Of a DNA stretch of 33,055 nucleotides, positions 18,762-26,676 are shown piece after piece. The notes under the pieces are model-generated. The model searched no databases, was not told where the DNA came from, and saw only the letters and a list, made by a program, of their open reading frames with translations. This DNA is from Candidatus Gottesmanbacteria bacterium (GTDB lineage Bacteria; Patescibacteriota; Microgenomatia; UBA10105), in contig JAHFKJ010000001.1 in assembly GCA_023245415.1 (NCBI GenBank), positions 96,902 to 129,956 on the forward strand, read 5' to 3'. Numbering within the stretch: position 1 is the stretch's first letter; each line of letters begins with the position of its first letter. The position numbers and the translations under genes are program-made.

Positions 18762-19324
18762 TTAAGTCGTACAAAATAGAATCTATTATTTTAGCCAGAC
18801 GCAACTTTGGTGAAGCCGACAAGTTTGTAACCGTTTTTTCAAAACAAACGGGTAAAAAAACCGTAATAGCCAAAGGTGTGCGCCGCATCAAGAGTCGACG
18901 GGCTCCTCACATAGAACTTTTTTCCCACACAGTTCTTATACTCCATCCCGGAAAAACTTTTGATCTCATCACTGAAGCTGTATGTTTGGAAAATTTTAGT
19001 CTGGCCCGGCAAAAAATCGAACGCATCGGATTTATTTATATTGCCTTAGAGTTAACACAGCGTTTAACCGCCGAACTCGTACCAACACCCGTCATTTTTG
19101 ATCAGTTATTGAGATTTCTGAATACTTTAAATCACCCCGCAACTAGGCGTCCGGATGCGTTACGTGAGCTGAATTTGTACAAAGAATTTATGCTCTCGGA
19201 ACTGGGATTTTTGCATCCTGCTAGATCAGTATCAGGAACACAATTGGATATGGCAATTGAAGAGGTGCTTGAGAGTACGCTCAAAAGCACGCCTTTCTTG
19301 ACAAGAATTCAATCCCTCGTATAA
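18758..19324 (+). CDS. recO: DNA repair protein RecO (short form)
   Basis: A protein of 188 aa starting at a GTG that overlaps the previous stop (GTGA, 18758-18761). The N-terminal OB-fold is recognised from YKIESIILARRNFGEADKFV, followed by KTVIAKGVRRIKSRRAPHIE and LFSHTVLILHPGKTFDLITEA. RecO loads RecA on SSB-coated DNA together with RecR. The usual length is about 240 aa. Here the C-terminal part with the zinc-binding cysteines is missing, only one cysteine remains, and the protein ends after a shortened helical region. The stop is followed by ordinary sequence with no continuing frame, so it appears to be a compact version rather than a frameshift. The promoter for glyS lies within its last 27 bases. 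Confidence 0.85.
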   Translation: MIKSYKIESIILARRNFGEADKFVTVFSKQTGKKTVIAKGVRRIKSRRAPHIELFSHTVLILHPGKTFDLITEAVCLENFSLARQKIERIGFIYIALELTQRLTAELVPTPVIFDQLLRFLNTLNHPATRRPDALRELNLYKEFMLSELGFLHPARSVSGTQLDMAIEEVLESTLKSTPFLTRIQSLV

Positions 19325-19325
19325 T
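19298..19325 (+). promoter_or_regulatory. Consensus sigma70-type promoter for the T-box-glyS transcript
   Basis: A perfect TTGACA (19298-19303) and a perfect TATAAT (19320-19325) are separated by 16 bp. The promoter is embedded in the 3' end of recO, whose stop codon overlaps the -10 box. Transcription would begin about 19331-19333, exactly at the 5' side of the first leader hairpin, which supports the T-box boundaries. Confidence 0.88.
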
Positions 19326-19330
19326 ATAAA

Positions 19331-19481
19331 GAAGCTTTGATCTCAATGGCATGAGGGAGCTAAAAAACTAATAAATTAAGTATCCCGTAAATAAAATACA
19401 AAAAGGCGGGATAAAATAAGGGTGGAACCATCCGGCTAAACCGGGTCCCTTCTCTAAATAAATTAAGAGAGGGGATTTTTT
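19331..19481 (+). promoter_or_regulatory. Glycine T-box riboswitch with a very short specifier stem
   Basis: The leader lies between the promoter and glyS. The antiterminator is textbook: AAGGG (19418-19422) pairs with CCCTT (19447-19451), the 7-nt bulge TGGAACC is at 19423-19429, and ATCCGG (19430-19435) pairs with CCGGGT (19441-19446) around loop CTAAA. The bulge bases TGGA match a tRNA ending UCCA; tRNA-Gly usually has U73, as required. A 7-bp stem (19381-19387 with 19407-19413) resembles Stem III. Stem I is tiny: AGCT 19333-19336 with 19358-19361 and CTCA 19342-19345 with TGAG 19352-19355. Glycine codons occur as GGC in its apical loop (19348-19350) and as GGG/GGA on its 3' side; which one is the specifier is unsure. 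Uncharged tRNA-Gly should favour read-through into glyS. Confidence 0.88.
19446..19481 (+). terminator. Rho-independent terminator of the T-box leader
   Basis: A 10-bp stem (19446-19455 with 19466-19475, one G-U pair), a 10-nt loop and six T residues (19476-19481). Its 5' arm shares 19446-19451 with the antiterminator, so only one of the two can form. It ends 12 nt before the glyS ATG. Confidence 0.88.
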
Positions 19482-19493
19482 GTAAAGAGTAGT

Positions 19494-20786
19494 ATGAGCG
19501 ATTTAATGGACAAAATTACCAGTTTATGTAAACGGCGCGGATTCATATATCCCGGTAGTGAAATCTATGGAGGATTCGGGGGATTTTATGATTATGGTCC
19601 CATGGGAACCGAACTTAAGAACAATATCAAGCGCGAGTGGTGGAAATATATGGTCTACGATCGAGATGATGTAGTAGGTATGGATGCGGCAATTATCATG
19701 AATCCGGATGTGTGGAAAGCTTCAGGACACATCGATCATTTTACCGATCCCTTAGTAGAGTGTAAAAATTGTCACTTGCGTTTTCGGGCCGACAAAGTGG
19801 GGAAAGTTTGTCCTGAATGTGGAGGAGCTTTTACAGAGCCCAAAAATTTCAATATTTTGGTTGAAACTTATATCGGCGTCATCGAGGACACCAAACGGAA
19901 AGCATATTTACGGGGAGAAATTACCCAGGGAGTTCACGTCAATTTTATGAATATCTTAAATTCCACGCGTCTCAAAATTCCCTTCGGAGTAGCTCAAATA
20001 GGAAAAGCTTTTCGTAACGAGATCACTCCAGGTAATTTTACTTACCGAATGCGTGAATTTGATCAGATGGAGTTGCAGTTTTATATCGCACCAGAAAGTG
20101 TCGAAGGAGAAAAATGGTTTGAATATTGGAAGGAAAAACGATTTACCTGGTATACGAATTTAGGACTTCACAAACAAAATATGCGCTTTCGTGATCATGA
20201 ATCGAATGAACGCGCCCATTATGCTCGTGCAGCCACCGATATCGAATATCAGGCGCCCTTTGGTTGGAATGAGTTTGAAGGAATTCACCACCGCGGAGAC
20301 TGGGATTTGTCCCAACATAGTAAGTACTCTGGGAAAGACCTGAGTTATTATAATGATAAAACGCAGGAACGGTTTATACCTTGGGTAATTGAAACCTCAG
20401 CTGGAGCTGACCGGGCGACGCTTTTTTTCCTAATTGATGCCTATCATGAAGAAGAGAAGCGGGTTGTTCTCAAACTTCACCCGAAGCTGGCGCCATATAA
20501 AGCGGCTGTATTTCCCCTAGTCGCCAATAAAGAAGAACTCATAGTAAAAGCACGAACTATTTACGAAAGTTTAAAAAAAGCTGGTATAATAGTATATTGG
20601 GATGACCGGGGAAATATAGGGAAACGTTACTTATTCCAGGATGAAATCGGGACACCGTGGTGTGTGACAGTTGACTATACGACCCTGGATGATAATGCTG
20701 TTACGGTGCGTGACCGGGATACGACCAGGCAGGAACGGATTCCGTCTGATAAATTAGTTTTATATATAAAAGATAAGCTTACATAA
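19494..20786 (+). CDS. glyS: Glycyl-tRNA synthetase, single-chain alpha2 type
   Basis: A protein of 430 aa and a class II synthetase. The N-terminus has YPGSEIYGGFGGFYDYGPMG, typical of the eukaryote/Thermus-type GlyRS. A four-cysteine zinc ribbon (CKNC ... CPEC, about residues 88-108) is inserted early. Motif 2 is AFRNEITPGNFTYRMREFDQ, and motif 3 is PWVIETSAGADRATLFFL, where GADR holds the ATP-binding arginine. The C-terminal anticodon-binding domain (about 335-430) begins at KLAPYKAAVFPLV. It charges tRNA-Gly with glycine in the cytoplasm. The gene is controlled by the glycine T-box just upstream, an independent support for its specificity. The next small gene, 9 nt downstream, is probably cotranscribed. 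Confidence 0.96.
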   Translation: MSDLMDKITSLCKRRGFIYPGSEIYGGFGGFYDYGPMGTELKNNIKREWWKYMVYDRDDVVGMDAAIIMNPDVWKASGHIDHFTDPLVECKNCHLRFRADKVGKVCPECGGAFTEPKNFNILVETYIGVIEDTKRKAYLRGEITQGVHVNFMNILNSTRLKIPFGVAQIGKAFRNEITPGNFTYRMREFDQMELQFYIAPESVEGEKWFEYWKEKRFTWYTNLGLHKQNMRFRDHESNERAHYARAATDIEYQAPFGWNEFEGIHHRGDWDLSQHSKYSGKDLSYYNDKTQERFIPWVIETSAGADRATLFFLIDAYHEEEKRVVLKLHPKLAPYKAAVFPLVANKEELIVKARTIYESLKKAGIIVYWDDRGNIGKRYLFQDEIGTPWCVTVDYTTLDDNAVTVRDRDTTRQERIPSDKLVLYIKDKLT

Positions 20787-25916: not shown

Positions 25917-25990
25917 ACATAGACCTCGTTTCCGAATTGTCGCCGGACGGCGCGCGTTCCAAGCTTACGTTTGGATAGGAAACGAGGTCG
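25917..25990 (+). ncRNA. Possible small structured RNA with a 12-bp closing stem
   Basis: GACCTCGTTTCC (25922-25933) and GGAAACGAGGTC (25978-25989) form a perfect 12-bp inverted repeat. The 44 nt inside can fold into two smaller hairpins, CGCC-GGAC-GGCG (about 25941-25952) and TCCAA-loop-TTGGA, making a three-way junction. A promoter lies just before it. It is richer in GC than its surroundings. There is no T-run after the stem, so it is a poor terminator. It could instead be a DNA element, such as an insertion end or recombination site. Which reading is right is not settled by sequence. Confidence 0.45.
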
Positions 25991-25992
25991 AA

Positions 25993-26676
25993 TTATTTAA
26001 ACTCCCAAATGTCTTCAACACGTTTTTGAATGATTTTGTACAAATCTTCGTCTTTGTCTTTGGAATGTGAGGCAATGCAGCCAGCCACCATATCCGCAAG
26101 CTGAATTAAATTATTTTGTTTTGAATCTACGAATTTCAGATCTGAAAATATGTTATTTTTCTTGTTATTGAGTTCGCGACTTAAATACGCACGAAGTTCA
26201 TTTCTTATTCTTTTTTCCCCTCGCTTATCAAACTTTAACTTTGCATTTTGGAACTTTTTCCCGCTCTTTTTCAAAACCTGCATGATAACAAAGTTAAAAA
26301 AAGATTCTTTTCTGTTTCGCAAAAAACTACTGTAAATATTTTTCTTTTTAACAACAATTGCTCTAATTTTGAAATCGTATGCTGCGCACGTTTGGAGAAA
26401 TTTTCTTTTTACTTCTTTACTACTTTTATGGAACTTAAACTCTACTGATTCTGGAAATTTAAGTTCTCTTTTTAACTTTTTCAGTGAAAGTGCGGTTTCT
26501 TCGGCTATTAAGTTATCATTAAATATTATGAGTACAATAACAAATACAAGAGACGATCCTTTTTGAATTTTGAATCCAGGATCTCCTGAATCATCAATAA
26601 AAACTAATTGTTTATTTGAAATTTGATTTTTTATATTTTTTCCTTTGTTCGATAACTTCAGTATTGTACACTTGCC
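25993..26676 (-). CDS. DUF3800 domain protein without a canonical start codon
   Basis: The frame is open from 26676 to the TAA at 25993 (about 227 codons). It contains LVFIDDSGDPGFK, the DUF3800 N-terminal signature with an acidic cluster resembling an RNase H-like active site, then FHKSSKEVKRKFL, RNRKESFFNFVI and DSKQNNLIQLADMVAGCI, the C-terminal signature. The family is of unknown function and often linked to mobile elements and defence. No ATG, GTG or TTG occurs in this frame between the TGA at 26679-26677 and FIDD. An ATG at 26680 is in another frame and meets a stop after about 22 codons; one base change in the A-rich stretch would join it. Alternatively, AAAGGA (26646-26641) may serve an ATA start. 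Confidence 0.72.
   Translation of the reverse strand, partial: GKCTILKLSNKGKNIKNQISNKQLVFIDDSGDPGFKIQKGSSLVFVIVLIIFNDNLIAEETALSLKKLKRELKFPESVEFKFHKSSKEVKRKFLQTCAAYDFKIRAIVVKKKNIYSSFLRNRKESFFNFVIMQVLKKSGKKFQNAKLKFDKRGEKRIRNELRAYLSRELNNKKNNIFSDLKFVDSKQNNLIQLADMVAGCIASHSKDKDEDLYKIIQKRVEDIWEFK
26663..26668 (-). promoter_or_regulatory. Possible -10 box of the DUF3800 gene
   Basis: TACAAT on the - strand lies within the 13-nt sequence (26659-26671) that also precedes the MazG-like gene. If it is used, transcription begins near 26656, which would exclude the ATG at 26680 as the start. Confidence 0.3.

Follow-up and report, generated by a model that had tools for sequence, protein, structure and literature searches.

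A predicted miniature glycine T-box riboswitch in front of glyS in Candidatus Gottesmanbacteria and its relatives among CPR bacteria

The glyS leader

The DNA analyzed here (the window; 33,055 nucleotides of contig JAHFKJ010000001.1, assembly GCA_023245415.1) is part of a 1.55-Mb, 96% complete genome of a Candidatus Gottesmanbacteria bacterium. An initial annotation, made from the sequence alone, had called this genome CPR-like, and its host indeed belongs to Microgenomatia within the candidate phyla radiation (CPR, Patescibacteria). It had also proposed that a miniature glycine T-box with a Stem I of about 29 nucleotides (nt) directly precedes glyS, the gene of a single-chain glycyl-tRNA synthetase (GlyRS) whose closest match is found in Candidatus Gottesmanbacteria GW2011_GWC1_43_10 (79% identity). 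A match to the Rfam T-box model RF00230, the folding of the leader and a relative with compensatory changes all agree with this proposal. We consider it very likely on computational grounds that the leader, located between recO (frame end at 19324) and glyS (ATG at 19494), is a minimal glycine T-box riboswitch that works by transcription attenuation. Its predicted parts are listed in Table 1.

Table 1. Features of the glyS leader and the gene downstream of it (window coordinates)
Feature	Position	Strand	Basis
Promoter: TTGACA (19298-19303), 16-bp spacer, TATAAT (19320-19325)	19298-19325	+	Sequence; overlaps end of recO frame (stop 19324)
Short Stem I, 29 nt	19333-19361	+	Sequence; both helices covary over 38 leaders
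Stem I canonical (C) helix AGC/GCU	19333-19335/19359-19361	+	Sequence and covariation
Stem I 3-nt bulge UUU	19336-19338	+	Sequence
Stem I tandem G-A (kink-turn)	19339-19340/19357-19358	+	Sequence
Stem I non-canonical (NC) helix UCUCA/UGAGG, 5 bp	19341-19345/19352-19356	+	Sequence and covariation
Hexaloop AUGGCA	19346-19351	+	Sequence
Specifier GGC (apical loop; next base A), matching the GCC anticodon of tRNA-Gly	19348-19350	+	Codon tracks gene in relatives
Single-stranded A/U-rich linker, 19 nt, in place of Stem II	19362-19380	+	No helix predicted
Stem III UAUCCCG/CGGGAUA (19381-19387/19407-19413), then AA	19381-19413	+	Folding; hairpin count in relatives
Antiterminator: A1 AAGGG/CCCUU, 7-nt bulge UGGAACC, A2 AUCCGG/CCGGGU	19418-19451	+	RF00230 alignment; A1 and A2 covary
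A1 helix strands	19418-19422/19447-19451	+	Sequence
Bulge UGGAACC	19423-19429	+	Sequence; RF00230 alignment
UGGA, predicted to pair with UCCA 3' end of tRNA-Gly (U73)	19423-19426	+	Discriminators of the genome's tRNA-Gly genes
A2 helix strands	19430-19435/19441-19446	+	Sequence
Intrinsic terminator UCCCUUCUCU/AGAGAGGGGA (19446-19455/19466-19475) and U6	19446-19481	+	Sequence, folding
glyS, single-chain glycyl-tRNA synthetase, regulated gene	19494-20786	+	NCBIfam PRK04173 glycine--tRNA ligase (E 1.5e-180); Pfam HGTP_anticodon

The comparison with RF00230 suggested by the initial annotation recovered the whole element with 28.1 bits (E-value of 1.5e-4 per genome), far below the curated gathering cut-off of 93 bits. 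No Rfam family reports the window T-box at curated cut-offs, and none of 20 related loci scanned with Rfam reaches any cut-off.

The 5' arm of the terminator overlaps the 3' strands of both A1 and A2, and its hairpin is calculated at -16.8 kcal/mol, against -11.3 kcal/mol for the antiterminator alone. The minimum-free-energy state of the leader, as computed by RNAfold, is the terminator, and the leader folds better than 200 of 200 shuffled sequences (z-score of -3.74). Since the terminator state is the lowest in free energy, the default state of the switch would be off. A U-run of at least five residues is present in 33 of 34 glyS-linked elements of the family, compared with 19% after shuffling. 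The genome has three tRNA-Gly genes, all with U73, which fits the A at the fourth position of the bulge, as the initial annotation had supposed.

A Stem II with an S-turn and a Stem IIA/B pseudoknot were not found in the glyS leader, where the interval between Stem I and A1 is made up of the linker and Stem III. Among 39 glycine elements of the family, this interval contains exactly one hairpin in 34, none in three and a small extra one in two. In most relatives, the single hairpin has RRRNG ahead of it and AA behind it, which is the context of Stem III; the RRRNG-Stem III-AA motif has been described for T-boxes as rejecting charged tRNA. The corresponding bases of the window leader are UUAAG or UAAGU before Stem III and AA after it.

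From its perfect promoter, RNA of the glyS leader is predicted to start at about 19331. With this start, and with the bases upstream encoding RecO (assigned by Pfam), a longer Stem I cannot fit in the leader; the initial annotation had argued from the promoter that a full Stem I has no room. Among 52 parsed related elements, the best upstream promoter match agrees at 10 or more of 12 bases in 67% of cases versus 3.5% of shuffles, and the -10 box ends 5-22 nt upstream of Stem I. These observations bear on whether the element could be part of a full-length T-box with a long Stem I further upstream and another promoter, an idea that draws on L001 of the same genome, where the T-box match is far longer (333 nt). 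However, the bases upstream of 19324 are coding, promoters lie just ahead of the short stem throughout the family, the RF00230 alignment places its entire Stem I in the short hairpin, and the helices of that hairpin covary (see below). We therefore give this explanation hardly any weight.

The apical codon and the regulated gene

The sequence of Stem I is that of a predicted kink-turn bearing an apical loop, and a tRNA-Gly with a GCC anticodon is present in the genome. Besides the apical GGC, GGG/GGA on the 3' side of the hairpin had been considered as a second codon option, which we discard, as GGGA is the GA motif of the kink-turn. In relatives, glycine leaders precede glyS, glyA (serine hydroxymethyltransferase) or purU and contain GGC in the loop, with the synonymous GGA in L219, L224 and L229. 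Three glyS leaders (L169, L199 and L200) have a hairpin with GGC in its loop and no recognisable kink-turn.

The same short stem is also found before genes of other specificities, where its loop contains ACC (thrS), GUC (valS), GAC (aspS) or AUC (ileS). The assigned codon is present in all 20 non-glycine elements, with a maximum of 15 when labels are shuffled; 18 of the 20 labels are independent, those of L181 and L184 being not, because they were called Asn from their AAC codon. The base after the codon is A in 19 of these elements and G in one. L181 precedes the gene of a non-discriminating aspartyl-tRNA synthetase, which charges tRNA-Asn too. Genes were named by NCBIfam; some of the thrS, ileS and valS labels rest on a reading of the protein start only. 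For L002, L004, L227 and L240, reading of the loop was by eye. Because the codon switches with the regulated gene, we take the loop codon, and with it the apical GGC favored by the initial annotation, to be the specifier.

The fourth base of the bulge varies in the same manner with the discriminator bases of the tRNAs encoded in the genome, with A opposite U73 for Gly and Thr, U opposite A73 for Val and Ile, and C opposite G73 for Asp. L181 and L184 combine AAC loops with a UGGU bulge that would need A73 on tRNA-Asn.

One can imagine that the hairpin merely stabilises the 5' end of the RNA and that specificity comes from the bulge and its UGGN alone, all the more so as the anticodon contact, with neither Stem II nor the interdigitated double T-loop motif (IDTM) present, amounts to three base pairs only. 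Such a role would not explain why the loop codon changes with the regulated gene in every non-glycine element, or why the parsed glycine loops carry the glycine codons GGC and GGA, and we regard it as very improbable.

Relatives and covariation

In the Gottesmanbacteria relative with the 79% identical GlyRS, the same leader is present with compensatory changes, namely CUUGA/UCAAG versus CUCA/UGAG in Stem I, GUCCAAU/AUUGGAC in Stem III, and AGGGCA in the loop. At an E-value of 0.1, a covariance model built from five leaders hits 103 of the 374 Microgenomatia genomes searched; one built from 39 matches, run over the phylum at 0.001, hits 96 of 380 genomes. Not all of these matches are short glycine elements, some being other T-boxes caught via the antiterminator. 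By our own count, at least 47 of the sampled CPR genomes have a short Stem I with a glycine codon, about 35 of them from Microgenomatia and 12 from other classes. A TGGAACC sequence upstream of glyS in L028 was judged by eye to be a chance match and rejected as a T-box.

Since MAFFT put Stem I of the raw leaders out of register, alignments were anchored on motifs with N padding; for the covariation set of 38 glycine elements, the register was fixed on GA, GGC, GA and UGGAACC. Where anchor placement was ambiguous the best-paired one was chosen and a few rows were fixed by hand, which tilts the figures toward pairing, and the shuffle control leaves relatedness in; read with this in mind, 88.9% of cells are paired versus 66.5% in shuffled sets (at most 54% when partners are slid), 180 cells versus 63 are changed on both sides, and the covariation score is 0.62 versus 0.21. 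Double changes are present in all four tested helices, that is, both helices of Stem I, A1 and A2. An alignment of glyS leaders, which had been proposed along with the Rfam search, thus reveals covariation in the short stem and the antiterminator and a conserved GGC, sometimes GGA, codon.

A further explanation is that the element is the decaying relic of a T-box, with termination now constitutive or tRNA sensing lost. The absence of two recognition modules could be taken as a sign of decay, and related CPR glyS genes are often without a T-box core. A relic, however, would not keep the same shape across 47 or more sampled CPR genomes of several classes with strong covariation and with codon and discriminator matched, and decay appears quite unlikely to us.

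Outside CPR bacteria, a sample comprising the 28 best matches from Chloroflexota (201 genomes) and the phylum of Actinoplanes (149 genomes) contained no short glycine Stem I among the 27 that were readable; the Chloroflexota glycine elements among these best matches have longer leaders. One Chloroflexota leader, L259, has a short kink-turned Stem I with the loop UUACUC and UGGU, which is not glycine.

At several CPR loci, glyS or glyA is preceded by miniature glycine T-boxes in tandem (L173:1335-1614, L166:1336-1613, L212:223-522, L179:138-429). L192:191-462 is also tandem; in both L179 and L192, the second copy is less distinct. In the glycine mini T-boxes of L067:2340-2500, L156 and L172, the 3' strand of A1 (CCCU) can, by eye, pair with the Shine-Dalgarno region, and these are therefore probably translational variants.

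Elsewhere in the window, a DUF3800-IX RNA (RF02968, 62.9 bits) is located at 25922-25993 of the plus strand. The opposite strand carries, facing this RNA, a reading frame of 109 aa (25993-26322) that matches the C-terminal part of DUF3800.

Relation to known T-box classes and proposed mechanism

According to the initial annotation, an internal specifier loop is retained in the known ultrashort T-boxes. This is not the case, as in class III Stem I is short, its apical loop of five or six nucleotides holds the specifier, and Stem II is required (PMC10482949); for the same reason, an apical specifier is not in itself new. Class II T-boxes are glycine specific and have no Stem II, and their long Stem I carries an IDTM (PMC10482949). 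Binding of tRNA by T-boxes is strengthened by the IDTM of Stem I, the S-turn of Stem II or both (PMC10482949, PMC7583486), and the IDTM is described as a general requirement of transcriptional T-boxes, in which tRNA has to be bound by the time the polymerase arrives at the terminator (PMC7583486).

The window element shares with class II glyQS of B. subtilis its glycine specificity, a linker in place of Stem II, Stem III, the antiterminator/terminator pair and control of a glycyl-tRNA synthetase. In glyQS, however, Stem I is long, its specifier loop is internal and an elbow-binding IDTM is present, whereas the window element has a 29-nt Stem I, an apical specifier and no IDTM. With class III ileS leaders of Nocardia farcinica and M. 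tuberculosis this element has in common the kink-turn, the short helix and a specifier in a penta- or hexaloop followed by a purine, whereas the Stem II S-turn and IIA/B pseudoknot of these mostly translational elements are absent and a terminator is used. Both tRNA-binding modules are thus missing because a class III-like Stem I is combined with a class II-like loss of Stem II. What is new in the predicted glyS riboswitch is that Stem II and the long Stem I are both absent from a transcriptional T-box. No paper on T-boxes in CPR bacteria was found in the open-access literature, although an earlier description of CPR mini T-boxes may exist.

The T-boxes before valS (L002) and ileS (L004) of the same genome resemble the glyS element in their short Stem I, here with GUC or AUC in the apical loop, and in their terminators, and are class III-like yet transcriptional. 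They differ from it in having UGGU instead of UGGA and in the long region between Stem I and A1, where an F-box-like GGGUAAGCCCGU was noted by eye, as in class III, in place of the mere linker of the glycine elements. In L183, L196 and other thrS leaders, the sequence after the short Stem I with ACC resembles a compact H-type pseudoknot and may represent a reduced IIA/B element. No T-box match in the genome is longer than the 333-nt one mentioned above (L001:1501-1833, minus strand, 75 bits), which precedes the gene of a 424-aa protein with no NCBIfam match.

The structure of the glyS element, the match of codon to gene and of bulge to discriminator, and the position of the promoter have been established computationally. 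By analogy with known T-boxes, we infer how tRNA would bind, how its charging would be sensed and in which direction glyS would be controlled. The kinked Stem I of the nascent leader would offer its apical GGC to the anticodon of tRNA-Gly(GCC), and, past the flexible linker, the Stem III/antiterminator module would catch the 3' end of the tRNA through pairing of UGGA with U73-C-C-A. Uncharged tRNA-Gly would in this way bridge Stem I and the antiterminator and hold the latter, so that glyS is transcribed; glycyl-tRNA could not fit, the terminator would form, and glyS would be off.

Several points weigh against a functional glycine T-box of this kind. With neither the IDTM (PMC7583486) nor Stem II (PMC10482949), affinity for tRNA could be too low. 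The terminal pair of A2, described as a G-U pair that is the primary sensor of the 3'-aminoacyl group, is A-U in the window, though the U is kept. Finally, all support for a glycine T-box is computational.

We are inclined, with some reservation, to view the CPR glycine T-boxes as a fifth class, defined by a kink-turned short Stem I with an apical specifier and by the absence of the IDTM, Stem II and the IIA/B element, and mostly transcriptional. Within such a class, some members would also be without Stem III, down to about 84 nt (L046, L179, L185), and a few may be without the kink-turn (L169, L199, L200).

If the fifth class is real, its members would count as some of the smallest tRNA sensors of this kind in nature, and two base-pairing contacts to tRNA would be enough. 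Without the IDTM and Stem II, the CPR family keeps all other sequence hallmarks across many CPR lineages, and its RNAs are short enough for chemical synthesis, so the question of what a minimal T-box is becomes directly testable. CPR bacteria gain a widespread predicted regulator, their glycine T-boxes being hidden by the present Rfam cut-off.
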